DNA of 34,079 nt from Alsobacter soli (GTDB lineage Bacteria; Pseudomonadota; Alphaproteobacteria; Rhizobiales; Beijerinckiaceae). A program made the translations under genes and the position numbers. The stretch covers positions 240,002 to 274,080 of the forward strand of contig NZ_PVZS01000003.1 in assembly GCF_003004785.1 (NCBI RefSeq), given 5' to 3'. The notes under the pieces are model-generated. The model was not told the origin of the DNA and did no database searches. It saw only the letters and a list, made by a program, of their open reading frames with translations. Of the stretch, positions 10,279 to 29,634 are shown one piece after another; the first letter of the stretch is position 1; each line of letters begins with the position of its first letter.

Positions 10279-10289
10279 GGCGGCTCGCC

Positions 10290-12140
10290 ATGGAACTCGC
10301 CGTCGCGGGCCGCGTGGCGCGGCCGGGAACCCGCTCCCTGCTCCTCGCCACCGACTGGCTCGCGGCGGCGATGCTGGCGGCCGATCTCGCCGTCGTCATC
10401 GGCTCCGTGATCGCACGGTCGCTGTTCAACGCGCCCGTCGAGTGGGCCGACGACGTCGCCCGCGGCCTCATGGTGGGGTCGAGCTTCTTCGGCGCGGCGA
10501 GCGCGCTGGCCCGCGGCGAGAACCCGGGCGTCGCATTCTTTGTCGAGAAGCTGCCAGACGGGGCCCGCCGCGTGGCGGATTCGGCCGGCGCCGTCCTGGT
10601 GACGGTGATCGCCGCCTACGCGGCCTGGAACGCGCTCAAGCTCGGATGGCTCACCACGGGCCAAACCACCGGCTCGGGCCTGCCCCTGGAATGGACCTTC
10701 TATCCCATGGGCGCGGGCGCGGCCTGCATGGCCGTGTTCGCGGGCGAGATCGTGCTGCGGCGCCCGGCCCGCGAGATCGCGTCGGGACTTGCCCTCGTCG
10801 TGGTCGCGGCCTGCGCCTACCTGGCCTGGGACGCGCTGTCGCCCGCCACGGTCCCCGAGCCGCGCACCCTGATGCTGGTCGGCTTCGTGGTGACCCTGAT
10901 GGGCGGGCTGCCGATCGGCTTCGCGCTGGCGCTGGCGGCGCTCATCTACATCTGGGTGGAAGGCAGCCTGCCGGGCGTCATCTTCGCCCAGCAGATGGCG
11001 CGCGGCATCGACAACTTCGTGCTGCTGGCGATCCCGTTCTTCATCCTGGTCGGCTACCTCATGGAGGCGAACGGCATGTCCGTGCGCCTCATCGAGCTGC
11101 TGCAGCGCCTCGTCGGGCGCATGCGCGGCGGGCTCAACGTCGTCATGGTCACCTCCATGGTGCTGTTCTCCGGCATCTCGGGGTCCAAGATGGCCGACGT
11201 CGCCGCCGTGGGCTCCGTGCTGGTGCCCGCCGCCCGGCGATCGAAGCAGAACCCCGGGCAGGCCGTGGCGCTGCTGGCCGCCTCGGCCGTGATGGCGGAG
11301 ACCATCCCGCCCTGCATCAACCTCATCATCCTCGGCTTCGTCGCCAACCTCTCCATCGGCGGCCTGTTCATGGCGGGCCTCCTGCCCGCCGGTCTGATGG
11401 CGGCGGCGCTGATCGCCGTGTCGATCCTGTTCGGGACAAAAGCCGCAGAGGCCGCAGAGGTCATCCCGGCCGGCGAGGTCGGGCGCATGTGGACGGGCGC
11501 AGTCGTGTCGCTCGGCCTCATCGCCATGATCTTCATCGGCTTCAAGAGCGGCTTCGCGACGGCCACGGAGATCTCGGCCTTCGCGGCTCTCTATGCGGTC
11601 GTGGTGGGCGCGGCGGTGTTCCGGGAGCTGTCCTTCGCGGCCGCCTGGCGCTGCTTCGTGTTCGCCGCCAACCGCTCGGGCCTTGTGCTGTTCATCGTGG
11701 CCGCGGCCCAGTCGCTCGCCTTCGTGCTGACGCTCCAGCAGGTGCCCCACATGGTCGCCGAGGCCATGGTGACGCTGTCCCATTCGACCGGCGTGTGGAT
11801 GTTCATGCTGCTCTCCATCGCGATCCTGATCGTCATGGGATCGGTGCTGGAGGGCGCGGCGGCGCTGATCATCTTCGGGCCGCTGCTGCTGCCGGTGGCG
11901 GCCCAGCTCGGCGTCGCGCCCCTGCATTTCGGCGTGGTGCTGGTGATCGCCATGGGCATCGGGCTCTTCGCCCCGCCCCTGGGGCTGGGGCTCTACGGCG
12001 CCTGCCTCATCGGCGACGTGCCGATCGAGCGCACGATCAAGCCCATCCTGGGCTACCTCGCCCTGCTGTTCGCCTGCCTGCTTCTGATCGCCTTCGTGCC
12101 GGGCGTCAGCCTGTGGCTGCCCCACGCCTTCGGGTACTGA
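10290..12140 (+). CDS. dctM: fused TRAP transporter permease (DctQ-DctM)
   Basis: Membrane part of the TRAP transporter, 616 residues. The first 190 or so residues form the small DctQ-type four-helix unit (NAPVEWADDVARGLMV motif near 48-63). From about 195 the large DctM ion-coupled permease begins, with the family segments AIPFFILVGYLMEANGMS, MVLFSGISGSKMADVAAVGS and PPLGLGLYGACL. In many bacteria Q and M are separate; here they are one protein, a known variant. It lies 11 bases after the binding protein gene and one base before the dehydrogenase, in one operon. Confidence 0.92.
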   Translation: MELAVAGRVARPGTRSLLLATDWLAAAMLAADLAVVIGSVIARSLFNAPVEWADDVARGLMVGSSFFGAASALARGENPGVAFFVEKLPDGARRVADSAGAVLVTVIAAYAAWNALKLGWLTTGQTTGSGLPLEWTFYPMGAGAACMAVFAGEIVLRRPAREIASGLALVVVAACAYLAWDALSPATVPEPRTLMLVGFVVTLMGGLPIGFALALAALIYIWVEGSLPGVIFAQQMARGIDNFVLLAIPFFILVGYLMEANGMSVRLIELLQRLVGRMRGGLNVVMVTSMVLFSGISGSKMADVAAVGSVLVPAARRSKQNPGQAVALLAASAVMAETIPPCINLIILGFVANLSIGGLFMAGLLPAGLMAAALIAVSILFGTKAAEAAEVIPAGEVGRMWTGAVVSLGLIAMIFIGFKSGFATATEISAFAALYAVVVGAAVFRELSFAAAWRCFVFAANRSGLVLFIVAAAQSLAFVLTLQQVPHMVAEAMVTLSHSTGVWMFMLLSIAILIVMGSVLEGAAALIIFGPLLLPVAAQLGVAPLHFGVVLVIAMGIGLFAPPLGLGLYGACLIGDVPIERTIKPILGYLALLFACLLLIAFVPGVSLWLPHAFGY

Positions 12141-12141
12141 G

Positions 12142-13122
12142 ATGAAGATCCTGCTCACCCACACGCCGCAGGCGCGGGCGCAATACTACGGCCCGCGCGC
12201 CCTGGCGGCGCTGCAGGCCCTGGCCGAGGTGCGCCTGCACGAGGGCGCGGACGCCCTGGACGCCGCAGGCCTGGTCCGCGCCGCGCAGGGCGTCGACCTG
12301 ATCATCGCCGACCGGCTCACCGAAGGCCGCGGCGAGATCTTCCCCGCCCTGCCGCGCCTGAAGGCGATGCTCCGCGTGGCCGTCGACATCCGCAACATCG
12401 ATGTGGAGGCGGCCAGCGCCTGCGGGGTGCTGGTGACCCGGGCCAAGCCCGGCTTCATGGCCGCCGTTTCCGAGCTGGCGCTCGGCTTCCTGGTGGACTG
12501 CGCTCGCGGCGTCTCGCGCGCCGCCGCCGACTACCACGCCGGCCGCATGCCCGAGGTGCGCATGGGCCGGCAACTCACGGGCGCGACCGCAGGGATCCTG
12601 GGCTACGGCGCCATCGCCCGCCACCTCGCCCCCATCCTGTCCGCCCTCGGCATGACCGTGCTCGTGCACGACCCCTACGCAGCCGTGGACGACGCCCGGC
12701 TCCAGCAGGTGGGCCGGGAGGAGTTGCTCCGCCGCTCGGACTTCGTGATCTGCCTGGCCGTGGCCACGGAAGAAACCGAGAACCTGTTCGACGCCGCCGC
12801 CTTCGCGCTGATGCGGCCGGACGCGTTCTTCATCAACCTCTCGCGCGGGAACTTGGTGGACGAGGCGGCGCTGGCCGCCGCCTTGCGGGAGGGCCGCCTC
12901 GCCGGCGCGGCGATGGATGTCGGCCGCGCGGCCGACCAGATGCCCTCCCCGGCCCTGGCCGCGCTCCCGAACGTGATCGCCACGCCCCACATCGGCGGCC
13001 TCGTACCGCAGGCGATCGAATCCCAGGCCTTCGACACCGTGCGGCAGGTCGAGGCCATCCTGGCCGGCTCCGTCCCCGAGGGGGCCGTGAACGCCGACCG
13101 CTGGACGCGCCGCGGCGCCTGA
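12142..13122 (+). CDS. D-isomer-specific 2-hydroxyacid dehydrogenase
   Basis: NAD(P)-dependent enzyme of 326 residues that interconverts a 2-hydroxyacid and a 2-oxoacid. The Rossmann domain lies at about 105-290 with the dinucleotide loop GYGAIA at 154-159 and the acidic D177 at the end of strand 2, favouring NAD+. Catalytic R235 (NLSRGNLVDEAAL) and H283 (TPHIGG) are present. The third catalytic residue, a Glu in DVFxxEP in most members, falls within DVGRAADQMP (259-268), where only D265 could stand in. It follows the TRAP permease by one base and may act on the imported acid. Confidence 0.88.
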   Translation: MKILLTHTPQARAQYYGPRALAALQALAEVRLHEGADALDAAGLVRAAQGVDLIIADRLTEGRGEIFPALPRLKAMLRVAVDIRNIDVEAASACGVLVTRAKPGFMAAVSELALGFLVDCARGVSRAAADYHAGRMPEVRMGRQLTGATAGILGYGAIARHLAPILSALGMTVLVHDPYAAVDDARLQQVGREELLRRSDFVICLAVATEETENLFDAAAFALMRPDAFFINLSRGNLVDEAALAAALREGRLAGAAMDVGRAADQMPSPALAALPNVIATPHIGGLVPQAIESQAFDTVRQVEAILAGSVPEGAVNADRWTRRGA

Positions 13123-13135
13123 CCCCCGAGGCCCC

Positions 13136-13972
13136 ATGACCCATCGCCCCGCACTCCAGGCCCCGCCCGGCGCCTGCGACTGCCACATCCACATCTACGA
13201 CGCCGCCTATCCGGCCGCGGCGACCACGCCCACGCCCGGCTTCGCCTGGGCGACAGCGGACGCCTACCGGGCCCTGCAGGCCCGGCTTGGCCTCACGCGG
13301 GCCGTCGTGGTCCAGCCCACCGCCTATGGCTTCGACAACCGCTGCACGGTCGCCGCCATCCAGGCGCTGGGACAGGAGACAACGCGCGGCGTCGCCGTGG
13401 TCGGGGCGGACGTGGACCATGCCGAACTGCGCCGGCTCACCGAGGCCGGGATCCGCGGCGCGCGATTCCAGATGTTGCCCGGCGGCGTCGTGCCGTGGGA
13501 CGACCTCGAGCCCGTGGCGGCCAAGATCGCCGACCACGGCTGGCACATCCAGTTGCAGATGGACGGCCGGCTCCTCCCGGAGCGCGAAGCGATGCTGCGG
13601 GGCCTGCCTTGCCCGCTGGTGATCGACCATGTCGGCAAGTTCCTGGAGCCGCCGGGACTCGACCATGCGGGCGTCGCCTGCCTCCTCCGACTGCTGGAGG
13701 CGGGAACAACCTGGCTGAAGCTCAGCGGTCCCTACGAGGTCTCGCGCGCGGGGCCGCCCGGCTACGACGACGTCGCCGCCATCGCCCGCGCCTGCGTGAA
13801 GGCGGCGCCCGAGCGCATGCTCTGGGCCAGCAACTGGCCGCATGTCTCGGTCAAGCAGCCGCCCGACGACGCGGACCTGCTGGACCTCCTAGCCGAATGG
13901 GCGCCCGCGCCGGCGATCGAGCAGATCCTCGTTCGCAATCCGGCTGCGGTTTACAGCTTCGAGGGGGCCTGA
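13136..13972 (+). CDS. amidohydrolase-superfamily lactonase-like hydrolase
   Basis: TIM-barrel hydrolase of 278 residues, resembling 2-pyrone-4,6-dicarboxylate lactonase (LigI) and galactarolactone isomerase. The metal- or substrate-site motif HIH is at 17-19 (CDCHIHIYD). Further barrel motifs are WHIQLQMDG, VIDHVGK and the late ASNWPH, where LigI has an Asp in place of the Asn. Such proteins open or isomerise lactones of sugar acids or aromatic ring-fission products. Together with the TRAP transporter and dehydrogenase this suggests a sugar-acid or dicarboxylate route. The exact reaction is not decided by sequence. Confidence 0.82.
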   Translation: MTHRPALQAPPGACDCHIHIYDAAYPAAATTPTPGFAWATADAYRALQARLGLTRAVVVQPTAYGFDNRCTVAAIQALGQETTRGVAVVGADVDHAELRRLTEAGIRGARFQMLPGGVVPWDDLEPVAAKIADHGWHIQLQMDGRLLPEREAMLRGLPCPLVIDHVGKFLEPPGLDHAGVACLLRLLEAGTTWLKLSGPYEVSRAGPPGYDDVAAIARACVKAAPERMLWASNWPHVSVKQPPDDADLLDLLAEWAPAPAIEQILVRNPAAVYSFEGA

Positions 13973-13998: not shown

Positions 13999-14015
13999 GC
14001 CGGCAGCCCGCCGGC
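13999..14015 (+). terminator. GC-rich hairpin after the TRAP operon
   Basis: GCCGGC at 13999-14004 pairs perfectly with GCCGGC at 14010-14015 around a 5-base loop, 26 bases after the amidohydrolase stop. No T-run follows. It may help end or stabilise the operon transcript. Confidence 0.35.
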
Positions 14016-14445
14016 GAAGCGGCGCGCCGAATAGTGGGCATTTGGGGGTGATCTGGCCGCCCTAGGGGTCGGGGGCGACAAGGAACGCATAGCGTTCAAT
14101 TGGAAGCGTGGCGACCCCGGCAGAAGCGCAACAGTTAAGCCTGGTCAAAGACTTATTCATCTGACCCGCATAAGAAATGCTGCATTGAGCTGCAATGGCA
14201 TTTCGATCTCGTGACTAGCATTTTTTAGGCGGGCGAATTCGTCGACATGCGACGCGCCGCGGCAATTTCTGCTTGGTTGAGGGAGACCACTGGGAACGCG
14301 AGGTCATGACCAACACGGACCTTAACGCGCCAGAGTTCCGACTCCGCTTCGGTCGGGAGAACGCAACTGAGCGACGCGGTGGACATCGCATCTCAGATCA
14401 GCGAAGAACGCCCGCTCGCCCGAGCCGATAGTGCGCGAGGACTGG
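14016..14445. other. gene-poor spacer upstream of slyX
   Basis: No convincing gene is seen here. It is AT-richer than its surroundings, especially at 14130-14230. An imperfect stem-loop lies at 14175-14203 (AAATGCTGCA against TGCAATGGCATTT, with a 3-base bulge), and T-run TTTTTT at 14221-14226. A 41-codon open frame at 14306-14431 has GAGG only two bases before its ATG and no recognisable pattern. Another short frame ending at about 14309 (ISAWLRETTGN) may be chance. The stretch could be decayed sequence, like the aldo/keto reductase remnant further right. Confidence 0.5.
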
Positions 14446-14682
14446 ATGAATAGGGAACTCGAATTCGCCGAGAAGGACTTCGCCGCGAGGCTCGAAGATG
14501 TTGAGGTGCGTCTCGCCTACCAGGATCAGGTGATCGAGGATCTCAATAAGGTCATTGTCGAGCAATGGTCCGCCATGGACACCTTTCGTCGCCAGATCGA
14601 GCGCTTGGAGGAAAGGGTGCGGGACCTACAGGAGCGGCCCATTCCCGGCCCGCAGGAGGAGCCCCCGCCACCTCACTACTGA
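14446..14682 (+). CDS. slyX: SlyX family protein
   Basis: Small coiled-coil protein of 78 residues. The signs of SlyX are the N-terminal RLEDVEVRLAYQDQVIEDLN, a long heptad-rich helix to about residue 64, and the characteristic C-terminal end EEPPPPHY. Its biochemical role is unknown, though slyX is widespread in proteobacteria. ATG 14446 has GAGG five bases upstream; GTG 14431, in frame, would add five residues and has no better site. It stands alone between two gene-poor stretches. Confidence 0.85.
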   Translation: MNRELEFAEKDFAARLEDVEVRLAYQDQVIEDLNKVIVEQWSAMDTFRRQIERLEERVRDLQERPIPGPQEEPPPPHY

Positions 14683-14715
14683 GCGGCGGACCGCAGTCCC
14701 TCGACACCCGAGTGA

Positions 14716-14856
14716 CTCCGTGTGGCATCGGCTTTCATTGGCCCAAGCCGCCCCGAACAGGTCCACCACTGCGCCGAGGCGCTCGGTAAACTTGATTTCA
14801 GCGCGGAGCAGTTGGCGAGTATCGACGATTTACAAGACGGCGTTCGGTGGTCGTAA
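14716..14856 (+). pseudogene. 3' remnant of an aldo/keto reductase gene
   Basis: Between a TGA at 14713-14715 and a TAA at 14854-14856 an open stretch of 46 codons reads as the C-terminus of an aldo/keto reductase of the L-glyceraldehyde-3-phosphate reductase (YghZ) type. It contains ASAFIGPSRPEQV, matching the family's TSALIGASRPEQ cofactor-loop motif, then ALGKLDFSAEQLASIDD, matching ALxNLxFSxEELAxID. No start codon with a ribosome site precedes it and the roughly 280 residues that should come before are missing. This is a gene fragment, not an active gene. It was found by reading the frame directly, and the match is from memory of the family. Confidence 0.72.
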
Positions 14857-15135
14857 TGCTGGGGGAACATCACCCTGGAAAGCCGAGGGAGTCGAGCAGC
14901 AGACCGGTCCAGCTTGGTGTACAGGAGCCCTGTTCGATCACGTGCGCGCCCGAGCGCTTGCGGACCTGTCGTGGCTGGCATTCAGCGGGCCGGACCTGCG
15001 TAGGACGCCCGCCGGCGTGGGCGAGCGCCTCGCGATTTTTAGTATATAAGCCGGATTATCACACGGTCGGATGGTGTGCGCCGACGTGCTCGGGGATATG
15101 ACTGTGGCCAGCATGACCCATTTTGCAACAGCCTC
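14857..15135. other. spacer before the lipid island
   Basis: No gene is recognised. Frames here have odd amino-acid composition and no family pattern. There is an AT-rich patch, TTTTTAGTATATAAG, at 15036-15050, that could hold a -10 element, without a matching -35. CACAC at 15060-15064 and GTGTG at 15074-15078 form a 5-bp dyad 58 bases ahead of the first acyltransferase. The promoter for the rightward lipid genes should lie here, but I cannot place it. Confidence 0.4.
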
Positions 15136-15912
15136 ATGACCCAACTCCCATCGCCGTCATGGCGCGTAGTTCTGAGATCCTATGTCTTTCTCGTTCTGAT
15201 CATCCTGCTGAGCGGCGCGTTCGCCCTGCTTCTGCCGTTCATGGTCCTGCCGCGGTCGTTCGTGCGGCGCATTTTTCATGCGTATCTCAGGATCGGACTC
15301 TGGCTCATCGAAGTCGTTTGCGACGTCCGTTATGTCGTCGTGGGCCGTGAAAACATCCCCCCGGGGCCCGTGCTGTTCGCCTCGAAGCATCAATCCGCGT
15401 GGGACAGCGCTGTTCTGCCCATGCTGCTGGGCGATCCGGCCGCCTTCGTGAAACGCGAATTCCTGCTGGCGCCGATCATGGGTCTTGTCGCGTGGAGAAT
15501 GCGTCATATCCCCGTGGCTCGCGGCAAGGGCGTCGGACCTTTCGCGAAGGCCGTCGAGACAGCCCGGCAGACGCTCGCCGAGGGGCGCTCGATCCTGATC
15601 TTTCCGGAAGGCACGCGCCGATGCGCGGCGCCCTATGCCAAGCCGGACTATCACAAGGGCGTGGCCGTTTTGTTCCAGCAATTGAAGGCGCCCTGCGTAC
15701 CTGTCGCCTTGAATTCGGGCCTGGTCTGGCCGCGGCGGAGCATCCTCCGCCCGCCCGGCGTCATACGGGTCGAAATCCTGCCCCTTATCCCAGCGAGCAC
15801 CGAACGCACGGCGTTCATGGGCGTCCTGATTGATCGCATCGAGACTGCATCCAGGCGTCTGGCGGGGGTTGAGGCTTCGCGAGGCGAGGAACTCGCGGCT
15901 GCCACGTGCTGA
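15136..15912 (+). CDS. PlsC-type 1-acylglycerol-3-phosphate acyltransferase (first copy)
   Basis: Membrane-associated glycerolipid acyltransferase of 258 residues. A hydrophobic N-terminal segment (about 13-38) anchors it. The catalytic HxxxxD motif is KHQSAWD (H85, D90), and the phosphate-binding FPEGTR motif is at 156-161. ATG 15136 is preferred over the upstream start at 15076, which would add 20 hydrophilic residues before the anchor. It overlaps the second acyltransferase by the GTG start at 15906. Next to the alkyl-DHAP synthase homologue, it could acylate glycerol-3-phosphate, DHAP or an alkyl-glycerol phosphate; the sequence does not say which. Confidence 0.9.
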   Translation: MTQLPSPSWRVVLRSYVFLVLIILLSGAFALLLPFMVLPRSFVRRIFHAYLRIGLWLIEVVCDVRYVVVGRENIPPGPVLFASKHQSAWDSAVLPMLLGDPAAFVKREFLLAPIMGLVAWRMRHIPVARGKGVGPFAKAVETARQTLAEGRSILIFPEGTRRCAAPYAKPDYHKGVAVLFQQLKAPCVPVALNSGLVWPRRSILRPPGVIRVEILPLIPASTERTAFMGVLIDRIETASRRLAGVEASRGEELAAATC

Positions 15913-16778
15913 TAAGAGCGGGCGATCCTGGGCGCCGCTTTGACGCGGAGGCGCGATGTGACGCTGGGGCGGCTCAGGCAGCCAATCCGGCCAGGGAAGC
16001 GCCGAACGGGTGGCTGGAGCCGACCCTATCGCCGCACTCGCTCTATAAGGTGGGGCAGCGCCGACGCATCAGCCGCCTCCTGTTTTGGCCGGTCTACGCC
16101 GCCTTCTGGTTGGCGCTGCGCATTGTGGGCGGCTACCGCATAGAGAACCTTCGGGCGATTAGGGGCCAATTCGCAGCGCTCGCGTCGCGCTCCAGTCCCA
16201 TCCTGATCTGCGCGAACCATCTCACGTTCGTCGACTCGCTGCTCATCGTGTGGGCGCTCGCGCCGGCGCGCTTTTACGCGCGGCGCTACAATCACCTCTC
16301 CTGGAACGTGCCCGCCGACGACGTCTTTGGCCGCAGGTGGCTTTGCAGGGCCATCCTGCGCGTCACGAAATGCATCCCCATCGATCGGAACGGCTCCATG
16401 CGGCACAAGGACCGCGTGTTGCAGTTCTGCGCGCATCTGCTCGCGAAGGGTGAGACGGTGACGATCTTTCCCGAAGGGAGGCGCAGCCGGAGCGGCCGCT
16501 TCGACCCTGGCCGGCTGGCGACCGGCGTCGGCAAGGTCGTGGCCCACGCGGGTCCGTGCCGGGTCGCCTGCGTTTACATGCGCGCAGAGGGGCAGGACGG
16601 CTACTCGGACTTCCCTCGCCGCGGATCCCGCTTCCGCCTCGCCATGGAAGTGATCGAGTTCGGCGCCGTACTCCCCCGCCCTGGGGCATACCGAGCAATC
16701 ACGGCCCGCATCGGCGAGACGCTAGCTCGGCTGGAGAAGCGCCATTTCGGACAGCCTGCGGACTGGGAGGACCGATGA
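15906..16778 (+). CDS. PlsC-type acyltransferase (second copy)
   Basis: Second glycerolipid acyltransferase, 290 residues. A hydrophobic stretch lies at about 58-75. The catalytic motif is NHLTFVD (H105, D110); the phosphate-binding motif is FPEG at 188-191, followed by RRSRSG rather than TRS. The start is GTG 15906, overlapping the stop of the first copy. The N-terminal 50 residues have no counterpart in the family, so a later internal start is possible. The two copies are only distantly alike, which suggests different substrates or positions (sn-1 and sn-2). The next gene starts in its stop codon (ATGA). Confidence 0.86.
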   Translation: MLIRAGDPGRRFDAEARCDAGAAQAANPAREAPNGWLEPTLSPHSLYKVGQRRRISRLLFWPVYAAFWLALRIVGGYRIENLRAIRGQFAALASRSSPILICANHLTFVDSLLIVWALAPARFYARRYNHLSWNVPADDVFGRRWLCRAILRVTKCIPIDRNGSMRHKDRVLQFCAHLLAKGETVTIFPEGRRSRSGRFDPGRLATGVGKVVAHAGPCRVACVYMRAEGQDGYSDFPRRGSRFRLAMEVIEFGAVLPRPGAYRAITARIGETLARLEKRHFGQPADWEDR

Positions 16779-17584
16779 CTTTGCCGTCGGACATAACCGG
16801 GGCCGCGCTCGTCACGGGCGCATCTTCGGGGATCGGCCGCTCTCTCGCCTGTCAGCTCGCGAAACGGGGCTTTCCCCTGATGCTTGTGGGCCGCGACGAG
16901 GCCACTTTGCGCTCCGCGGCCCACGACTGCGCCGGCGCGGGCGTCAGGGCGGAGATCTGCGCCGTCGACCTCGCTGAGCCGGACGCCGTGAAGCGGATCG
17001 CCGCAGCCCTGGACGCGGCCGGCATGCGGGTTGAGATCCTGGTCAACAACGCCGGCTTCGCCGTGCACGGCCCCGTGGCGGCCGTGGAGGCGGATGCGGA
17101 GGAAGCCCTCGTTCAGGTGCAGATCCTCGCGACCCTGCGACTGACCCGGCTGGCGCTGCGCTCCATGCTGCCGCTGCGCAGCGGGCGCATCGTGCACGTG
17201 GCGTCCGTTTACTCGTTCATCCCCGTCCCGCACCAGGCCGTGTACGGCGCCTGCAAGGCCTTCATGTTTAGCCACGCTGCGGCCCTGCGCGAGGAGCTCA
17301 GGGGGACGGGCGTCACCGCCAGCCTGCTCGCGCCGGGCACGACCCGCACCGCCTTCCGCAGCCGCGCGGGCCTCAGCCCCAGGGCGGAGCGCGGCGGCAT
17401 GGACCCAGACCGCGTTGCGGCCGAAGCCGTCGAGGGCCTGATGGCCGGGCGCTTCCTGATCGTGCCGGGGTTGCGCAACAAGCTGCTCACGCTGGCCGCG
17501 GGCCTTGTCCCGCGCCCGTCCCGCGCCAGGGTGATGGGCGCGATTAACGCCAGGCGCGGCCTGGGCGGTCACGGCGGCGGCTGA
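16775..17584 (+). CDS. short-chain dehydrogenase/reductase
   Basis: Classical SDR of 269 residues. Seen are the nucleotide-binding TGASSGIG (14-21), NNAG (91-94), catalytic Ser144 in HVASVYS, Tyr157 and Lys161 (VYGACK). Arg40 after the second strand (LVGRDE) suggests NADPH use. ATG 16775 has GGGAGG upstream and overlaps the acyltransferase stop. In eukaryotes the acyl/alkyl-DHAP reductase of ether-lipid synthesis is an SDR, so the partner of the neighbouring alkyl-DHAP synthase homologue could be this enzyme; a 3-oxoacyl reductase role is the other plausible option. It converges on the next gene with a 16-base overlap. Confidence 0.9.
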   Translation: MTLPSDITGAALVTGASSGIGRSLACQLAKRGFPLMLVGRDEATLRSAAHDCAGAGVRAEICAVDLAEPDAVKRIAAALDAAGMRVEILVNNAGFAVHGPVAAVEADAEEALVQVQILATLRLTRLALRSMLPLRSGRIVHVASVYSFIPVPHQAVYGACKAFMFSHAAALREELRGTGVTASLLAPGTTRTAFRSRAGLSPRAERGGMDPDRVAAEAVEGLMAGRFLIVPGLRNKLLTLAAGLVPRPSRARVMGAINARRGLGGHGGG

Positions 17585-19242
17585 GCGGTCTTCCCTTCGT
17601 CCGGAATGAGCTTGCCGGGATTCATGATCCCCTTTGGGTCCAGCGCCGCCTTGAGGCCGCGCAAGGCGCGCAGGCCGGTGGAGGAGACTTCCTGCTCCAT
17701 CCAGGGACGGTGTTCCGTCCCCACGGCGTGGTGGTGGGTCAGGGCCGCGCCGCTCTGCATGAACCCGTCAGTGATGCGGCGCTTGTAGCGGTAATACTGG
17801 TCGAGCTCGCGCCCCTCGATCTGCCGGGCCGCGTAGGTGAAGTAGAGACAGGCGCCGGTATCGTAGGTGTGGGAGATATGGCAGCCCACCACGCCATGGC
17901 CGCCCTGCTCCTCCCGGAACAACTCCTCCACGGCCGCTATCGTGCGGGCGTGCACGTCGACGACCTTGTCCCAGGTGGCCGAGGTCTCCGAGACGTCGCA
18001 CATGACGCCGCGGTCCATGATGTAGTCCCGCAGGTAGGGCATGTTGTACTTGTCTTTCGACCAAGCTCCGCCCACGCTCGCCCCGAGGGGAAAGGCCCCT
18101 CGCCTCTTCATCACCCTGAGCGCCTGGACCCGAAGGCGGCGCACGTCCGCAGGCTGGCCTTCGAAGCCGATCACCATGATGCACGGCCGCGCGTAGCCGG
18201 AACGGGCCAGGTAGGCCTTCACCCCGCCCTGGAGCAGGCCGGACAGGCCTTTGGGCGGCGCCTTCATGCGGAAGGCCAACTCCGTCTCGCCCTCGTCCTG
18301 CAGCCGGATCATGCTGGGACGGATACCCGCCCGCAGGCAGTCGTGGATGGCGGCCACGCCATCACTGAAGCTGCGAAAAAGCAGCCCGCGATAATCCTTC
18401 GCCGCAGGCGCCGCGTGCACCCGCATGGTGGCTTCGACGATCACGCCGAGCACCCCCTCCGAGCCCACGACAACGCGGTTCAGGTCGGGTCCCGCCGACG
18501 AGGCAGGCACGGGACGAGTCTCGATCACGCCCATCGGGGTCGCCATCGTGACGGACACGACCATATCCTCAATCCTGCCGTAGGCGTCGGACTGCATGCC
18601 GGCGGACCGGGTCGCAAGCCAGCCGCCCAGGGTCGAGTACTCGAAGGAATCCGGGAAATGCCCCAGGGAGAGGCCGTGCTTCTGGAGTTGCTGCTCCAGC
18701 TCGGGGCCGGACGCGCCCGCCTGGATCACCGCGGTCATGGCGTAGCGGTCCACGCTCACCACCCGGTTCATCCGTCTCAGATCGAGGCAGACGATCATGC
18801 GCCGCTCCCCGAGCAGGGGATCGACGCCGCCGACGATGTTGGTCCCGCCCCCGAAGGGGATCACGCACGCCTCGTGGGCATGCGCCAGCGCCAGGATGCT
18901 CTCGACGTCCTCCCGCGAGCTCGGACGAACCACGAGGTCTGGCAGCCTGCCCAGATCTCCGCAGCGGGCGCGCCAGAGGTTCGGATAGCTCTTCCCATAT
19001 GCGTGGTGGAGGCGGTCCTCGTCCGAGCTCGAACACTCCGCATGGGGCACGGCCGCCGCGAGCGCGCCGACAAAGGCGTCGTTCATCACAGGCGAGGCAA
19101 ACCGCAGGGATGCCCGCTCCACCGGCGGCGTGGAGCGCTCCACCTCGAGTCCAAGCTTGGTCCGGGCCCAGGGCCAAAGGTTCGGCTTCTGGTCCATGGG
19201 GAACGAAACGTCATACGCGCCCCAGCCCCACCATTTCATCAT
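17569..19242 (-). CDS. alkyldihydroxyacetonephosphate synthase-like FAD enzyme
   Basis: FAD-dependent enzyme of 557 residues in the AGPS branch of the vanillyl-alcohol oxidase family. AGPS swaps the acyl chain of acyl-DHAP for a fatty alcohol and makes the glycerol ether bond. Seen are the N-terminal KWWGWG, FAD loops PFGGGTNIVGGV (129-140), DSFEYSTLGGWLATRSAG (198-215) and GSEGVLGVI (260-268). Two AGPS-specific blocks are present: HTYDTGACLYFTY (458-470) with the active-site Tyr, and the HHH run at 503-505 (LTHHHAVG). D-lactate dehydrogenase relatives lack these last motifs. ATG 19242 (a second ATG follows at 19239) has GGGAGAGAG upstream. It is read in the same direction as the fatty acyl reductase gene, 18 bases behind it. 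Confidence 0.88.
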   Translation of the reverse strand: MMKWWGWGAYDVSFPMDQKPNLWPWARTKLGLEVERSTPPVERASLRFASPVMNDAFVGALAAAVPHAECSSSDEDRLHHAYGKSYPNLWRARCGDLGRLPDLVVRPSSREDVESILALAHAHEACVIPFGGGTNIVGGVDPLLGERRMIVCLDLRRMNRVVSVDRYAMTAVIQAGASGPELEQQLQKHGLSLGHFPDSFEYSTLGGWLATRSAGMQSDAYGRIEDMVVSVTMATPMGVIETRPVPASSAGPDLNRVVVGSEGVLGVIVEATMRVHAAPAAKDYRGLLFRSFSDGVAAIHDCLRAGIRPSMIRLQDEGETELAFRMKAPPKGLSGLLQGGVKAYLARSGYARPCIMVIGFEGQPADVRRLRVQALRVMKRRGAFPLGASVGGAWSKDKYNMPYLRDYIMDRGVMCDVSETSATWDKVVDVHARTIAAVEELFREEQGGHGVVGCHISHTYDTGACLYFTYAARQIEGRELDQYYRYKRRITDGFMQSGAALTHHHAVGTEHRPWMEQEVSSTGLRALRGLKAALDPKGIMNPGKLIPDEGKTAQPPP

Positions 19243-19260
19243 GGGCGCTCTCTCCCGGTT

Positions 19261-20421
19261 TCAGGCCGCCGCGATCGCCTCCCGCCCCGGCGCGCGGTCA
19301 CCCCAGCCAGCCTGCTCGGCAAAGGCGAGAAGGCGGACGACATAGGCGCCGTCAACGGCTGGTGGGTCCCGATACGCGTCGCCCAGGGCGGCGCGGAGCC
19401 TCTCGACTCCAAACACGGGCTCGCCCGTCGTGTAGGGCTGGTAAGCCTGGAACACCGGCTCCAATCCCTTCTGGAGCCTCGCCATCACGGGTGGCATGGC
19501 CGACAGCGCAGCCGCCTTCTCGGCGTCGGTTCTGCAGACCCGAAGGCCCGTGATTCGCAGGGCGCGCTGGGCGTCTGCCCAGAGTTCGTCGACCTGGGGC
19601 GGATGGGGATGCGTGAGGTGAAAGACGCCCTCGGCTCGCACGCGAAGCAAGGCCACGATGGCGTCCGCCGCCCAGTCGAGCGGAACCAGGTTAAGCGTGG
19701 CTCCGACGTCGTGGCGCACGGCCACTGGCATGTGGACCACGCCCTCGCTTGAAACGGCGACGCTGTCCGGCAGACGAGCGCCAGCTCGGCGGCGCAACAC
19801 GGCGGCCGCGACCGCGAGCGCCTTGCAATACGTGTAGAAGGCATCGAAACCCGGCGTATAGCCGTCTTGTCCGCCGACCAGGATCGCGGGTCGATAGATG
19901 GCGAAGCGGCGGCCCGCGGCGGAGGCCGCCCACGCGCGGACCAGGCCTTCCCCGGTATGCTTCGACGTCTCGTAGGGATTGCGCCAGCGCTGGCCAACCG
20001 CGTAGTCCGTCTCCCCGAAGCGCCGCGCGTCGCCGGCCACGTAGGCGGTGGAGACGTGCAGCACCTCACGCACGCCCAGCGCGTCGGCCAGGTCCAGCAT
20101 GTTGCGGACGCCACCCACATTGCTGGCCATCGCCTGCTCGGCGTCGAGGAAATCGATGCTGGCGGCGCAGTGAAGGATGCGGCTCACGCGACCCGCAAGG
20201 CTCGCGCGCTTCGAAGCCGACAGCCCGCAGAGCGGCGCGCCGATATCCCCGCGAACGGCGCCGACCTCTGCTCCTGAAGGCAGGAGGGGTTGGAGTCTCC
20301 GCCTGGCGTGAGCCTCGTCGTCCGCGCGCACGAGGCCAATCACCGGCTCCCCCGCGTCGACAAGGCGCGGCAGCAGCTGCGATCCCAGGGTCCCGGTCGC
20401 CCCCGTCAGGAGGGTGCCCAT
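19261..20421 (-). CDS. extended SDR, fatty acyl reductase / thioester reductase type
   Basis: NAD(P)-binding reductase of 386 residues resembling the reductase domains that convert fatty acyl-CoA or carrier-bound thioesters to aldehyde or alcohol. Seen are TGATGTLG (6-13), HCAASIDF and NVGGVRNMLDLA (about 84-112), HVSTAYVAG with Ser124, and the catalytic Tyr150-x3-Lys154 (NPYETSK). Start ATG 20421 has GAGG eight bases upstream; the longer frame to GTG 20451 has none. It lies immediately upstream of the AGPS homologue, 18 bases apart, so a role in making the fatty alcohol that AGPS needs is likely. A sugar epimerase role is the main alternative. Confidence 0.83.
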   Translation of the reverse strand: MGTLLTGATGTLGSQLLPRLVDAGEPVIGLVRADDEAHARRRLQPLLPSGAEVGAVRGDIGAPLCGLSASKRASLAGRVSRILHCAASIDFLDAEQAMASNVGGVRNMLDLADALGVREVLHVSTAYVAGDARRFGETDYAVGQRWRNPYETSKHTGEGLVRAWAASAAGRRFAIYRPAILVGGQDGYTPGFDAFYTYCKALAVAAAVLRRRAGARLPDSVAVSSEGVVHMPVAVRHDVGATLNLVPLDWAADAIVALLRVRAEGVFHLTHPHPPQVDELWADAQRALRITGLRVCRTDAEKAAALSAMPPVMARLQKGLEPVFQAYQPYTTGEPVFGVERLRAALGDAYRDPPAVDGAYVVRLLAFAEQAGWGDRAPGREAIAAA

Positions 20422-20524
20422 GTTCCACGCCTCGTCGATGGGAACGCCCACGAACGCAGGCGGGAATTCGAATCGGCGGTCAGCAGCCCAAGGCGGGCGC
20501 TGGCCGCAAGCGCCACGTACTAAA

Positions 20525-20566
20525 CAACCCTAGGTTGGGCAACAACCTGAAACCTAACTCAGGTTG
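20525..20566. repeat. two adjacent inverted repeats built on CAACC/GGTTG
   Basis: CAACC-CTA-GGTTG lies at 20525-20537, and a longer perfect one, CAACCTGA with TCAGGTTG around an 8-base gap, at 20543-20566. The right arm of the second runs into the P450 stop codon (20559-20561). On the - strand they fall after the P450 gene and 104-145 bases ahead of the acyl reductase gene, and the first is followed by TTT. They may be a terminator pair for the P450 gene or operators for the reductase/AGPS genes. Confidence 0.6.
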
Positions 20567-21818
20567 GTTCGAAACGAATGTGGAGCCGCTCCGGCCAACG
20601 ATGCCCGACACGGGCCTTGTAGCGAACCGGGCCGTCGTCGATCGCGAGCCGACGGGTTCGAGTGAAGAGCGCCTGCAGCGCCGCCGCGACCTGGAGGCGC
20701 ACGAGGTTGGCGCCCAGGCAACCGTGGCGTCCCTGGCCGAAGGTCAAGGCGCCGCCCTCTGACCGATCAGGGGCGAACCTGTCAGGTTTCTCGAAGGCAA
20801 CCGGGTCGCGGTTGGCGGCCGCCAGCGCCAGAAGCACGACGCCGCCCTGGGGGATCGAACGCCCGGCTATTACCAGGTCCTCCCGCGCGATGCGGGCGAT
20901 GAACTGGCCGGGGGTATCGAAGCGAATCCCCTCCTGGGCGACGGCGCGCGCACGCTCGGGCTCCCGTTCGAGCCTGCGCTGCTCTTCTGGATGGCCGCCG
21001 AGGGCCAGCAATGTGTTCGCAATGGCGGCGTCGATGTTCTCGATCCCGTCGGCATAGATTAGCATGCAGGCGTCGAGCAGCTCGGGCTCCGATAGTATTC
21101 GACCTTCGGCCTCGGTTTGCATCAACTCAGAAATCAGGTCGTCGCCACCCGCTCGACGCCGCGCCGCCGCGTGCTGGCGCAGATAGTCGCGAAATTCCGC
21201 GAGGTCCTGGTCCACCCTCACGCGGGCGGCCTCCGAGGGCATGGGCGCGAACAGATGGAAGAAGGCGTCGCTCCAGGCATCCAGCCGAGCGGCGTCTTCG
21301 ATCGGCAGCCCCATGATCAGCGAAATCACCGCGACCGAGAGCGGGCGCCCGAATTCAGACATGACCTCCATCGACCGACGCTCGAGGCAGGGCTCCAGGA
21401 GGCTCCCGGCTAGTTGCGGAAGTTCGAGATCGAGACGACCAAGCCGGGCCCGAAGCGCTCCCGCGACGATCCGCCGAACAGCCCCATGCTCCGGCTTGTC
21501 GAGGAAGGGCAGGATGTTCGCCGCCACGTCGGCGCAGACGAACCGGTCGCGATTGCGACGGGCGATCACGGCCGTGGGCGCCGGAGCGTTGCCCAGGCGG
21601 CGGTCGCCGAACGCCGCAGCCACGTCCGCGTGTCGTGTCAGGAACCAGGCGCCCGAGCGTGTCCGATGCACGGGGTCATGGACGCGCAGCGCCGCGTAGG
21701 TCGGATACGGATTTTCGAGAAAGACGGGATCCAGGAGGTCCAGTGGCGAGCCGACCGCGGCTTGCGTCGGGCTCGGCGCATCCCCGCGAAGGGTGGACAG
21801 CAGACGTCGGAGCACCAT
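20559..21818 (-). CDS. cytochrome P450
   Basis: Soluble bacterial-type P450 of 419 residues. The haem-thiolate loop is FGQGRHGCLGA with the ligand Cys367. The K-helix ExxR is EGIR (296-299). In the I-helix the usual (A/G)GxET is ADGIENID (256-263): the acid E260 is kept but the conserved Thr is Asn261. Start ATG 21818 gives the normal length; upstream TTG 21887 would add 23 polar residues. No clear Shine-Dalgarno sequence precedes ATG 21818. It could hydroxylate or otherwise oxidise an acyl or alkyl chain made by its neighbours, but the substrate is unknown. Divergent from the ABC transporter genes. Confidence 0.9.
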   Translation of the reverse strand: MVLRRLLSTLRGDAPSPTQAAVGSPLDLLDPVFLENPYPTYAALRVHDPVHRTRSGAWFLTRHADVAAAFGDRRLGNAPAPTAVIARRNRDRFVCADVAANILPFLDKPEHGAVRRIVAGALRARLGRLDLELPQLAGSLLEPCLERRSMEVMSEFGRPLSVAVISLIMGLPIEDAARLDAWSDAFFHLFAPMPSEAARVRVDQDLAEFRDYLRQHAAARRRAGGDDLISELMQTEAEGRILSEPELLDACMLIYADGIENIDAAIANTLLALGGHPEEQRRLEREPERARAVAQEGIRFDTPGQFIARIAREDLVIAGRSIPQGGVVLLALAAANRDPVAFEKPDRFAPDRSEGGALTFGQGRHGCLGANLVRLQVAAALQALFTRTRRLAIDDGPVRYKARVGHRWPERLHIRFEPT

Positions 21819-21989
21819 GGACGCTTGGCCCTGCGATCGGAGAGGTGGAAAACTACTAGCTTTGCTTGTGACCGTTACCTCCCTCAACTAGAGCTTGTCG
21901 ACCCTTGCAAGTCACCTCGCATGCGCCGTGTCGCCACCTGATGTTCCCCAACTGTCGCGGCGCCGCGGGCCCGCTTGGAGCTTAACCTG
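21819..21989. promoter_or_regulatory. divergent promoter region between P450 and LptB-like genes
   Basis: These 171 bases separate oppositely read genes and must hold both promoters. The stretch 21851-21915 is AT-richer than the rest. CTTGCAAG at 21904-21911 is a perfect 8-base palindrome. On the - strand AGGGAGG (21879-21885) looks like a ribosome site, but no ATG or GTG follows at the right distance. No firm -35/-10 pair was placed. Confidence 0.35.
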
Positions 21990-22772
21990 ATGACCGGGCC
22001 GACGGAGTCGGAAGGATGGAGGCTGGCCGGCGCCGGCCTGGTCAAAGCCTATGGCGCGCGGGTGGTGGTGTCGGACGTTTCGATCCTGGTGCGCCCTCGG
22101 GAGATCACCGGGCTTCTGGGCCCGTCGGGATCTGGCAAGACGACGATTTTCCGCATGCTGACGGGGCTGGAGCGACCTGACCGCGGCCTTGTCTCCCTGG
22201 ACGGGCGCGACGTCTCCCGCGTCGCCCTCGATGGCCGGGCGCGCCTCGGGCTCGGCTACGTTCCGCAGGCTCCGAGCTTGTTCCCGGGTCTTACCGCCGA
22301 GGAAAACCTGAAGATCGCCGCGGAGGCGCGCCACACGGACCCAGCCCTGCGCAAGCGGGTGGTCGGGATGATGCTGGCCTGGTTCGGGATCGAGCCGACG
22401 AGGAATGTTCGGCTGGGCCTGCTGTCGGGCGGACAGCGCAAGCTCGTCGAGATCGCCTATGCGGTTTGCCCCCTGCCCCGCTACCTCCTGCTTGACGAAC
22501 CCTTCACTGGGCTCGACCCCTTGATGGTCGCCGCGCTCTCGGCCCGCATCCGCGCCATCGCGGCGTCGGGCGTGGGGGTGCTGCTGACCGACCACAAGGC
22601 GCGCGCGGCGCTCGAACTGGTGGACAGCGCCGTCGTCCTTCAGGACGGACGCGTCATCGCTGCCGGACCTCCCGCGGACGTGATCGACATGCCGCGCGTA
22701 CGATCCGCGTTTCTGGGCGACAACTTCAGCGTCGGCGAGGCCGCTCCCGCCGAAGGCGCAATGGCGGTCTAG
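21990..22772 (+). CDS. LptB-like ABC transporter ATPase
   Basis: ATP-binding subunit of 260 residues. Walker A GPSGSGKT is at 44-51, the signature is LSGGQRK, Walker B is YLLLDEP followed by FTGLDP, and the switch histidine sits in GVGVLLTDHK. The last parts match LptB of the lipopolysaccharide exporter (GIGVLITDHN; a C-terminal LG(E/D)(D/N)F end, here FLGDNFS), which is rare in other ABC ATPases. ATG 21990 has GGAG nine bases upstream. Two polytopic genes with LptF/LptG features follow, so it probably powers extraction of a lipid from the inner membrane. Whether this is the cell's LPS exporter or a second copy cannot be seen from the window. Confidence 0.88.
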   Translation: MTGPTESEGWRLAGAGLVKAYGARVVVSDVSILVRPREITGLLGPSGSGKTTIFRMLTGLERPDRGLVSLDGRDVSRVALDGRARLGLGYVPQAPSLFPGLTAEENLKIAAEARHTDPALRKRVVGMMLAWFGIEPTRNVRLGLLSGGQRKLVEIAYAVCPLPRYLLLDEPFTGLDPLMVAALSARIRAIAASGVGVLLTDHKARAALELVDSAVVLQDGRVIAAGPPADVIDMPRVRSAFLGDNFSVGEAAPAEGAMAV

Positions 22773-22779
22773 CGCGCCG

Positions 22780-23940
22780 ATGCTCTTCTCGCGGCAAGCC
22801 GTCCGGCAGATGCTGACGACCTACCTCATCGCGTTTTCCGCACTGCTGGGCGTTTTCGCCATCGAGAAGTTCGACTTCATCTTGCGCACGGCCTTGACCT
22901 ACCGGCTGGGGCCGCGCTCCTTTTTGGTGCTGTTCGGCGCCATGATGCCAACCATCATGGATGCAGTGGCACCCATCGCGGCATTGGTCGCCACCTACCT
23001 CGTCGTGCTGCAGAAACGCGAGGGGCGGGAATTTCTGATCCTTTCCGCTGCGGGTTCGGGGGGGCGGCCCCGAATCGAAATCGCCGCCGCGATGGCCTGC
23101 GTCGCCCTGTTCAGTTCCCTTGGAGTCGCCGGCTTCCTCAAGCCGCTCGCGAGCCACGTGTTCCGCAGCGAGTACGAAGCGGCGCTCGCGGGTGTCGTCG
23201 GCCGCGGGGCGGAGACGGGACAGTTTTTCGATGCCCGCGACACCGTGCTGCATGTCTGGGGCGATCCCTCTCCGGTGGGGCGCAAGATGCGCGTCTTCAG
23301 CTTCGACGGCGACCGCCTCGACCAGGTGTTCGCATCCAACTGCGCCGACATGCGCGTCGAGGGCGGTCGACTGCTGGTGGATGCCTGCGAAGCGCGCGTA
23401 TTCGCCTTCAAGAAGCCGGAAAGCGAATCGGGCGAGCCGCTCCCCATGACGCCACACTGTCGGATCTGCACGGACCCCGACGGCGGGATCGACGTCGTGC
23501 GGGTCAAGGGCGCCGGGTCGCGGAGGGAATTCGACGTCAACACGCTGTTCCCACCGGAGGTGAGCAGTCGCCAGGACGAGTTGACGCTGCCGGCACTCCT
23601 GGCGCGGCGCGATACGGTCTTTCTCTCCCGCTCCAATGGGCGGAAAGGGACGATCATCGTGCAGCAGGCGATTGTGAGCGCCCTCGGAGTCGGCCTGGCC
23701 TTTCTGGCGGCCGCCGGCACAACGGCCAGGACCCGCTTCCTCGCCTTGCCGGCCGCCATCGCCCTTCTGCTTGGCTGCCTGGTGCTCGCCGGCTCCGGCG
23801 CCTTCGCGCCTGCCGACGGATCGGCGGTTGCAGCCGCTCTCGCGACGGCGGCGCTGGCCGCCCTGTCACTCGGCGGGCTCGTGCTGTCGGCCGTTGTGAC
23901 GCGCCCCATGCTGACCGCCCCGCGCCTGGTCCGTTCATAA
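22780..23940 (+). CDS. LptF/LptG-family permease (first)
   Basis: Inner-membrane permease of 386 residues with three N-terminal helices, a periplasmic domain (about 130-290) and three C-terminal helices, the LptF/G layout. The cytoplasmic coupling helix EGREFLILSAAGSGGR (81-96) matches the family's ESEL..MRAAGIS segment that docks on LptB. The periplasmic part, which in LptF/G is a beta-jellyroll that hands lipid to LptC, carries four cysteines (C188, C203, C227, C230), the last two as HCRIC. It starts 7 bases after the ATPase stop, and its TAA overlaps the next ATG by one base. Confidence 0.85.
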   Translation: MLFSRQAVRQMLTTYLIAFSALLGVFAIEKFDFILRTALTYRLGPRSFLVLFGAMMPTIMDAVAPIAALVATYLVVLQKREGREFLILSAAGSGGRPRIEIAAAMACVALFSSLGVAGFLKPLASHVFRSEYEAALAGVVGRGAETGQFFDARDTVLHVWGDPSPVGRKMRVFSFDGDRLDQVFASNCADMRVEGGRLLVDACEARVFAFKKPESESGEPLPMTPHCRICTDPDGGIDVVRVKGAGSRREFDVNTLFPPEVSSRQDELTLPALLARRDTVFLSRSNGRKGTIIVQQAIVSALGVGLAFLAAAGTTARTRFLALPAAIALLLGCLVLAGSGAFAPADGSAVAAALATAALAALSLGGLVLSAVVTRPMLTAPRLVRS

Positions 23941-25133: not shown

Positions 25134-25233
25134 TTGAATTTTCGGTGGGCGCGTCTTGCTATGCGGGGAACCGCCGTCCATACCAAGCGGCCCGCCTCCG
25201 CCCCGAGGCCTCGGCCTACGACCGGAAGCCAGC

Positions 25234-25518
25234 ATGACAAGCTCCTCCACTGCCGACCGCGACGCCATCACGGCGAGCCTCTTCGACATCGTCGCGGAGG
25301 AGGCGATGGTGGACCGGTCCGCCATCCGCCCGGAGGCGCTGCTGGAAGAACTTGGCGTCAAATCCGCGGATTTCGTGATGATCCTGATGGCCGTGGAGGA
25401 GAAGTTCGGCGTGTACCTCTCGGTGGACGAGGAACTCGCCGAGGCCAAGACGGTGCGGGACCTGACCGACATCGTCGTCACCCGCATCCAGGAGCACCGC
25501 GCCAGGGCTGGCGCGTGA
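25234..25518 (+). CDS. acyl carrier protein
   Basis: Carrier of 94 residues that holds acyl chains on a phosphopantetheine arm. The four-helix ACP pattern is clear, with the modification serine S44 at the start of helix 2 in ELGVKSADFV; canonical ACPs read DSL at this point, so Asp is Lys and Leu is Ala here. MAVEEKFGVYLSVDE follows as in other ACPs. ATG 25234 is preferred over an upstream in-frame start at 25156, which would add 26 Pro/Arg-rich residues. The ketosynthase gene overlaps its stop (GTGA), suggesting that the two work together. Confidence 0.88.
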   Translation: MTSSSTADRDAITASLFDIVAEEAMVDRSAIRPEALLEELGVKSADFVMILMAVEEKFGVYLSVDEELAEAKTVRDLTDIVVTRIQEHRARAGA

Positions 25519-29589: not shown

Positions 29590-29634
29590 GGTAGCAAAGC
29601 GCCTTGTTACAACCTTTGGTCAAGCGATAGGCGA

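Follow-up and report, generated by a model that had tools for sequence, protein, structure and literature searches.

The window analysed here, a 34,079-nucleotide stretch of the Alsobacter soli genome (contig NZ_PVZS01000003.1, positions 240,002 to 274,080 of the forward strand), carries a gene set that probably encodes an animal-type ether-lipid pathway, of the peroxisomal route, in an alphaproteobacterium; judging from the sequence, we put the probability of this reading at roughly three in four (0.77). The set consists of five intact genes at window positions 15136-20451: two PlsC-type acyltransferases (PlsC1, 15136-15912, motifs KHQSAWD and FPEGT; PlsC2, 15906-16778, motifs NHLTFVD and FPEGR) and a classical short-chain dehydrogenase/reductase (SDR, 16775-17584 from the ATG at 16775, motifs TGASSGIG, NAG and YGACK) on the plus strand, and an alkylglycerone-phosphate synthase (AGPS, 17569-19242) and a 396-residue NAD_binding_4 thioester/fatty-acyl reductase (19261-20451, alternative ATG at 20421, nucleotide motif GATGTLG and YxxxK motif YETSK) on the minus strand. 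All five proteins score above the gathering score of a Pfam family, among them Acyltransferase (8.9e-20 and 2.7e-17), adh_short (1.1e-41, longer SDR frame) and NAD_binding_4 (9.9e-34). The PlsC and SDR genes form a plus-strand unit (15136-17584) with overlaps of 7 bases between PlsC1 and PlsC2 and 4 bases between PlsC2 and SDR, and the AGPS, reductase and cytochrome P450 genes form a minus-strand run from 21887 down to 17569. Because the 3' ends of the SDR and AGPS genes converge, overlapping by 16 bases, these are two convergent units and not one operon. An earlier note on this DNA had located the set at 15136-20421 with 18 bases between AGPS and the reductase; genes, coordinates and spacing were reproduced on recomputation, save for the reductase end, as 20421 is an internal ATG (residue 11) of a frame that reaches 20451.

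By its homology, active-site residues and phylogeny, the FAD enzyme at 17569-19242 is an AGPS, as the earlier note had claimed. In phmmer searches it matched Dictyostelium AGPS with 430 bits (8.7e-128, aligned over residues 38-546) and guinea-pig AGPS with 297 bits (3.2e-87), the best D-lactate dehydrogenase match reaching 106 bits (2e-29). Mutagenesis has identified R352, R447 and Y508 of Dictyostelium AGPS as important for catalysis (PMC3509576), and these residues correspond to R313, R405 and Y467 of the window enzyme, the chain index running 3 below the published Dictyostelium numbers at all three positions alike. The HTYDTGACLYFTY block is also present, and the His triplet (HHH, 503-505) is kept. 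In a bootstrapped tree of 37 rows, a hand-picked subset, the window AGPS pairs at 100/99 with that of locus L066, from a metagenome-assembled genome (MAG) labelled Elusimicrobia, inside a clade of 18 rows that also includes the two eukaryotic AGPS sequences (support 99/98). The corresponding clade of a 74-row quick tree comprises 32 rows (support 98), and two outgroup rows stand apart at 100, one a D-lactate dehydrogenase-like protein of the same genome (3.8e-156 against a solved D-lactate dehydrogenase) and the other a GlcD-like protein (8.4e-154). Long branches lead to the guinea-pig and outgroup rows, a point of which the tree program warns. The 74-row tree drew on 110 collected rows, leaving out those that were empty or shorter than 400 residues, L045 and L119, and keeping 19 named loci from L096 upwards and no others in that range. 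The phylogenetic check proposed in the earlier note thus placed the enzyme with the eukaryotic AGPS and apart from the D-lactate dehydrogenase-like and GlcD-like rows, and a glycolate or D-lactate dehydrogenase identity was rejected on the phmmer scores and the trees.

Comparison of AGPS-like genes across bacteria revealed two kinds, which differ at one residue and in their neighbours. At window residue 198 (GHFPDS) Asp is found in the window, Dictyostelium and guinea-pig enzymes and in all 29 bacterial clade rows, and the 40 rows outside the clade carry Gln (31), Glu (1) or an unread site (8). Counted over all 102 loci with an AGPS match (motif unread in 10, Glu in 1), and as proportions of a sample for which the contig search pattern required D or Q at this site and the best 80 of more than 586 were taken, 44 of the 48 Asp-type loci have at least one partner within 3.5 kb, with an SDR at 36, a PlsC at 38, a fatty acyl reductase (FAR) at 22 and all three at 18. 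None of the 43 Gln-type loci (41 distinct, L043/L111 and L045/L119 being duplicate pairs of contigs) has an SDR, PlsC or FAR within this distance, three of the ten unread-motif loci have an SDR, and the single Glu locus has no partner; flanks of 3.5 kb are available on either side at 30 of the 48 Asp-type and 34 of the 43 Gln-type loci, and the partner profiles, grown at these loci starting from the window proteins, could miss divergent partners. For the 74-row tree, the 29 bacterial clade members have SDR at 18, PlsC at 21, FAR at 8 and any partner at 25 loci within 3.5 kb, and the 40 rows outside the clade have SDR at 3, PlsC at 0 and FAR at 0. Of the sequence at these 29 clade loci, the 170 kb close to AGPS contain 18 SDR, 24 PlsC and 8 FAR matches, and the 174 kb lying more than 5 kb from AGPS contain 1, 2 and 0, respectively.

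AGPS is found together with SDR and PlsC elsewhere too, namely in actinobacteria, Verrucomicrobia, Caldithrix, KSB1 and the Elusimicrobia-labelled MAG, and a FAR lies nearby in many actinobacterial AGPS loci, in that MAG and in two Gemmatimonadetes loci; many Asp-type loci come from related actinobacteria and are not independent events. Given the 430-bit alignment and the recurrence of the same kinds of partner in other phyla, the set is not a product of chance. In actinobacteria the genes follow the order SDR-PlsC-AGPS; Verrucomicrobia, Caldithrix and KSB1 have PlsC-AGPS-SDR, in some cases plus another PlsC; and AGPS is convergent with its partners in L066 and the window. Since the order differs between groups, the association has probably been maintained or re-established on more than one occasion. 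The earlier note knew of no described alphaproteobacterial set of this kind joined to export and head-group genes: its ether part does recur in other bacteria, but its combination with export genes was found at no other locus examined. In the class sample, 46 of 385 genomes have an AGPS match at 1e-50, the own one included; 18 of the 45 others were taken with flanks and 17 placed in the 74-row tree, where one (L040, genome G373) fell inside the eukaryote-containing clade, the sole alphaproteobacterial member placed there aside from the window. Among 39 other relatives, two (G009 and G032) have an AGPS at E 1e-50 or better, with 29% and 33% identity.

The closest AGPS among the sampled loci is that of L066 (58% identity), where the convergent gene (L066:8703-11702, minus strand) encodes a 999-residue fusion protein whose successive domains are NAD_binding_4, Sterile, Acyltransferase and adh_short. 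The window SDR shares 44% identity with the SDR portion of this fusion and falls into a 31-row clade of the SDR tree (support 95) together with 28 AGPS-adjacent and two non-adjacent SDRs; the L066 SDR row itself, truncated (27% filled) and outside this clade, was not used for its placement. Six outlying SDRs (L067, L069, L070, L072, L073 and L089) constitute a separate group of Verrucomicrobia/Caldithrix/KSB1 type, and one and the same step may have drawn on two SDR lineages. The window protein is a classical SDR with catalytic motifs and a recurrent AGPS link, which speaks to association and not to substrate. The core roles that the earlier note had assigned, those of an AGPS, of an SDR reducing alkyl-dihydroxyacetone phosphate (alkyl-DHAP) and of acyltransferases, are supported by homology, active-site residues, phylogeny, neighbourhood and the fusion protein. 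The L066 fusion is also a ready-made single-chain candidate for ether-lipid synthesis.

In the pathway that we propose, one PlsC would acylate DHAP in the role of GNPAT, AGPS would swap the acyl chain of acyl-DHAP for a fatty alcohol, the SDR would reduce alkyl-DHAP to 1-alkyl-glycerol-3-phosphate, and the second PlsC would acylate sn-2 to give 1-alkyl-2-acyl-glycerol-3-phosphate. The fatty alcohol would be supplied by the NAD_binding_4 reductase from acyl-CoA, or from acyl-ACP made by the acyl carrier protein (ACP), ketosynthase (KS) and MaoC genes of the neighbouring unit; acyl-ACP is an attractive but unproven substrate. The enzyme families, the AGPS catalytic residues and the recurrent link to SDR, PlsC and FAR are read from the genes themselves, and we infer the substrates, the order, the activities and the division of labour between the PlsC proteins. 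The earlier note had the genes covering each step from acyl-DHAP onward: candidates for these steps are present, and with two PlsC proteins the route could start one step earlier, at DHAP. A search of the genome for CarF/PEDS1 (PF10520, plasmalogen) gave no match, and the control genomes gave none either.

Beyond the P450 gene (20559-21887, minus strand; Pfam p450 8.2e-21, haem-Cys motif FGQGRHGCLG), plus-strand genes from 21975 encode an LptB-like ABC ATPase (21975-22772; Pfam ABC_tran) and two LptF/LptG-family permeases (22780-23940, Pfam LptF_LptG 1.6e-11; and the LptG-like 23940-25133, 4.4e-15), followed after a 100-base gap by an ACP (25234-25518; Pfam PP-binding 4.8e-8), a FabF-like KS (25515-26720; Cys-His-His motifs; NCBIfam fabF 372 bits for the longer frame 25134-26720, cut-off 494) and a MaoC-like dehydratase (26717-27496; Pfam MaoC 3.7e-7). 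The ACP reads GVKSADF, with the Ser present; the usual phosphopantetheine motif is DSL, and most ACPs carry Asp before the phosphopantetheine Ser. Both permeases exceed the LptF_LptG gathering score and the best NCBIfam match of the ATPase is LptB (LPS_export_lptB), with the equivalog cut-offs for LptB, LptF and LptG not reached (224 of 240, 50 of 230 and 52.5 of 240 bits). The genome has another LptF/G pair on contig C56, followed by LptD, which scores 241 and 202 bits with Pfam LptF_LptG, compared with 44 and 56 bits for the window pair. No other match to the LptG-like gene was found in the 39 relatives at 1e-10, in 25 AGPS-bearing genomes at 1e-8 (without a positive control) or in 397 other genomes of the phylum at 1e-12, sets that may overlap. 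Its structure model (mean pLDDT 42.4) is uninformative. Tentatively, and at somewhat less than even odds, the Lpt-like genes would export the ether lipid.

Beyond a minus-strand block (27471-29589) of a small hydrophobic protein (27471-27872, no Pfam family match), a possible GT2-like glycosyltransferase (27869-28771; Pfam Glyco_tranf_2_3 0.0012, below cut-off) and a clear DXD-type glycosyltransferase (28756-29589; Pfam Gly_transf_sug 4.8e-13), three plus-strand genes with overlapping ends (29635-31618) encode a CDP-alcohol phosphotransferase resembling phosphatidylinositol-phosphate (PIP) synthase (29635-30405), a PgpA-family lipid phosphatase (30402-30896; Pfam PgpA 1.2e-34 for the longer frame, its GTG start overlapping the synthase stop) and a NodB-type polysaccharide deacetylase (30878-31618 from the ATG at 30878; Pfam Polysacc_deac_1 8.8e-19, longer frame). 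The phosphotransferase matches the NCBIfam models for archaetidylinositol-phosphate synthase (111 bits, cut-off 180), PIP synthase (98 bits, cut-off 170) and pgsA (33 bits), and its best PDB match is the PIP synthase of M. tuberculosis (6h53, 1.1e-15), with which it shares 17 of 18 checked sites, R152 being replaced by Lys. R94, S132, K135, R155 and R195 (M. tuberculosis numbering) have been linked to inositol-phosphate binding (PMC6506517, PMC4634129), and all five are kept, as is the CDP-alcohol signature; pairwise alignment and phmmer agree on the mapping, including the SYNKAR segment, and the four other CDP-alcohol phosphotransferase family members of the genome do not keep this residue set. 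We consider it somewhat more likely than not that the phosphotransferase uses inositol phosphate; that the ether core itself receives an inositol head group is a more doubtful proposition. The single myo-inositol-phosphate synthase (MIPS) match of the genome lies on another contig (G000:C2:183147-184229, or L159:9148-10230), next to a nucleotidyltransferase and frames that by eye resemble glycosyltransferases, and inositol phosphate may serve another glycan. CDP-alcohol phosphotransferases near AGPS at five Thermoleophilia loci (L106, L116, L117, L129 and L144) were rejected as a link between AGPS and PIP synthase: by pairwise alignment they keep R94 and none keeps the set S132, K135, R155 and R195, and the three loci placed in the 74-row tree fall outside the AGPS clade.

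An extension of the ether-lipid pathway, at lower odds, would have the phosphatidate activated, joined to inositol phosphate by the 29635-30405 enzyme and dephosphorylated by the PgpA-family enzyme (in Bacteroides, a PgpA-family protein most probably dephosphorylates PIP; PMC9246714); the resulting lipid would then receive sugars and leave through the second LptB/F/G set. In the 39 relatives there are four weak matches (30-32% identity) to the PIP synthase-like protein, and AGPS, exporter and PIP synthase all appear foreign to the family, a pattern that hints at joint acquisition but falls short of proof. In the window, 10.4 kb separate the PIP synthase gene from AGPS, and a flank of at least 10.5 kb is available at one of the 48 Asp-type loci; since the flanks at the others are too short, absence of a PIP synthase there means little. 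That 15136-31618 as a whole makes one exported surface lipid, a 1-alkyl-2-acyl phosphatidylinositol with a sugar later de-N-acetylated and with Lpt-like export, seems to us unlikely.

A number of observations weigh against the pathway or its extension. The SDR and PlsC families are both promiscuous, the two PlsC proteins stay below the NCBIfam AGP_acyltrn cut-off, the SDR clade of the window leaves out nine of the 37 AGPS-adjacent SDRs, and four of the 29 clade loci have no partner (L040, one flank of which stops at a contig edge; L082, a 3.1-kb contig; L091; and L092). No LptF-, LptG-, PgpA- or MaoC-like gene was found at the other AGPS loci, the link of ether lipid to export and inositol is one of proximity and shared rarity, and the PgpA-family protein, the sole match in the genome, could be the housekeeping phosphatidylglycerophosphatase, weakening a dedicated role. 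In Myxococcus xanthus, disruption of the AGPS gene MXAN_1676 led to only minor loss of ether lipids according to PMC9131029, so an AGPS operon need not be the main ether-lipid route. The reductase has its best PDB match in the reductase domain of MxaA (3.5e-18), with a good match confined to its N-terminal part, no Pfam Sterile match at 0.001, only the N-terminal FAR domain above threshold, and a structure model (mean pLDDT 55.7) that is mostly of low confidence from residue 137 on.

Alcohol supply by this reductase appears to be the weakest step of the pathway, because it matches only the N-terminal FAR domain and most AGPS-linked FARs also have the Sterile domain (matched at 1e-5 in nine of ten scanned, three of the nine above the gathering score, as is the match of the L066 fusion). 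Its C-terminal part retains a weak FAR-like similarity (8.3 bits, compared with a best of 5.2 in 1000 shuffles). What remains of the FAR-like enzyme described in the earlier note is thus the NAD_binding_4 domain with its motifs, but not a clear C-terminal FAR domain. Eight of ten FAR-type proteins scanned near AGPS, all eight from actinobacteria (L064, L080, L094, L097, L103, L114, L131 and L141), carry a C-terminal HAD hydrolase-like domain, and elbB of Myxococcus is likewise of HAD type (PMC9131029).

It is at this step that the strongest alternative enters, in which two separate systems adjoin: the ether set (PlsC-PlsC-SDR and AGPS) would lie beside an unrelated lipid/polyketide-like cluster of P450, LptBFG, ACP, KS, MaoC, glycosyltransferases and PIP synthase, and the NAD_binding_4 protein would belong to the latter and release an ACP-bound acyl chain as aldehyde or alcohol. 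The best PDB matches of the reductase do include carrier-protein reductase domains, of MxaA and a peptide synthetase, NCBIfam Thioester-redct gives 119 bits (below the cut-off of 213), and LptF, LptG and MaoC homologues occur at no other AGPS locus examined; however, the reductase gene precedes AGPS on the same strand with a gap of 18 bases, and a FAR is found near AGPS at 22 of the 48 Asp-type loci. We regard this alternative as a serious but lesser possibility. It is improbable that the SDR and PlsC proteins serve an acyl-DHAP route to ester phospholipids and that the AGPS homologue carries out another flavin-dependent exchange or oxidation. The bare Gln-type loci, none of the 43 with a partner, do imply that family membership alone does not fix function, but the window AGPS belongs to the partner-associated Asp-type clade of the eukaryotic enzymes and keeps the mutagenised residues. 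Very improbable is a silent, decaying or mis-assembled island without function: the genes look acquired, given an AGPS in two of the 39 relatives (29-33%) and the LptG-like gene in none, but the frames given above run without interruption, their starts and stops overlapping, and AGPS, KS, P450, SDR and PIP synthase retain their catalytic motifs.

The animal-type pathway, which we prefer, places this route in an alphaproteobacterium, and Asp or Gln at window residue 198 offers, going by this sample, a simple sequence test of which bacterial AGPS-like genes are likely to serve ether-lipid synthesis. Should the Lpt-like and inositol genes be part of the pathway, the locus would be a tractable example of LPS-type export machinery redirected to a different lipid. 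Eukaryotic glycosylphosphatidylinositol (GPI) anchors and glycoinositolphospholipids have ether-linked phosphatidylinositol; a single exported surface lipid, if real, would be a bacterial counterpart of their lipid part, built from separate enzyme families, and a duplicated lipopolysaccharide (LPS) transporter would have been turned to the export of an ether glycophospholipid. In one survey covering Agps and ElbD homologues, Agps was scored by an identity of at least 30% together with E-value (PMC11868695), and surveys of this kind are expected to count the Asp and Gln types alike. Among the matches listed from open-licence PMC, no title or abstract opening dealt with AGPS sets from alphaproteobacteria or with AGPS accompanied by an Lpt-like exporter, a silence that is weak evidence of novelty.

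As to the surroundings, GT4-type glycosyltransferases, among them 31587-32864 (minus strand; Pfam Glycos_transf_1 5.4e-23), run from the deacetylase to the contig end (34079). No tRNA or Rfam match above gathering score marks an island edge. A SlyX-family gene (14446-14682) in a stretch of lower G+C (0.61, 14001-15000) just upstream of the cluster is a possible boundary. TRAP transporter and hydroxyacid dehydrogenase genes at 9000-13900, which match a Methylobacterium currus plasmid with 76% identity across 79%, are apparently unrelated to the lipid genes.

Among known systems, the window can be set beside the mammalian and Dictyostelium peroxisomal pathway (FAR1, GNPAT, AGPS, alkyl-DHAP reductase and AGPAT), with which it shares an AGPS alike over nearly its full length, catalytic residues kept, and to which it offers one candidate for each remaining step. 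In contrast to that pathway, the window genes are bacterial and clustered, the GNPAT and AGPAT roles would fall to PlsC-type proteins, and the reductase lacks a clear Sterile domain. The M. xanthus operon MXAN_1676-1675-1674, which contains the myxobacterial AGPS (MXAN_1676) and a FAR/GNPAT-like fusion (PMC9131029), likewise places AGPS beside FAR-like and GNPAT-like proteins. FAR and acyltransferase are fused there but separate in the window, its third gene is described as of epimerase/dehydratase type where the window has a classical SDR, and the window adds a second PlsC, a P450, an Lpt-like exporter and inositol-lipid genes.

ElbD, which the earlier note had named as a myxobacterial AGPS homologue, is not one: required for alkyl ether lipids, it combines FAR, acyl-CoA synthetase, ACP and acyltransferase in one protein, and the portion of PMC9131029 drawn on describes no AGPS domain in it. 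ElbD was rejected as a precedent on the strength of PMC9131029 and PMC9426513, the latter reporting elbD-type clusters from sponge symbionts; no acyl-CoA synthetase domain was found among the window proteins scanned (15136-34077), which do not show the ElbD architecture. AGPS has also been noted near another type of reductase (PMC11948995). The Bacteroides thetaiotaomicron genes BT_1523, BT_1525 and BT_1526 encode, as here, a PIP synthase-type CDP-alcohol phosphotransferase, a PgpA-family phosphatase and a MIPS (PMC9246714); in the Alsobacter genome, unlike that cluster, the MIPS gene lies elsewhere and the phosphatase gene overlaps a deacetylase gene, and the available part of that report mentions no ether-lipid genes or Lpt-like exporter in the Bacteroides cluster. 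Finally, the LptB2FG exporter of LPS and the window share the arrangement of one ATPase with two LptF/LptG-family permeases in tandem, the window permeases being distinguished as a divergent second pair in their genome.

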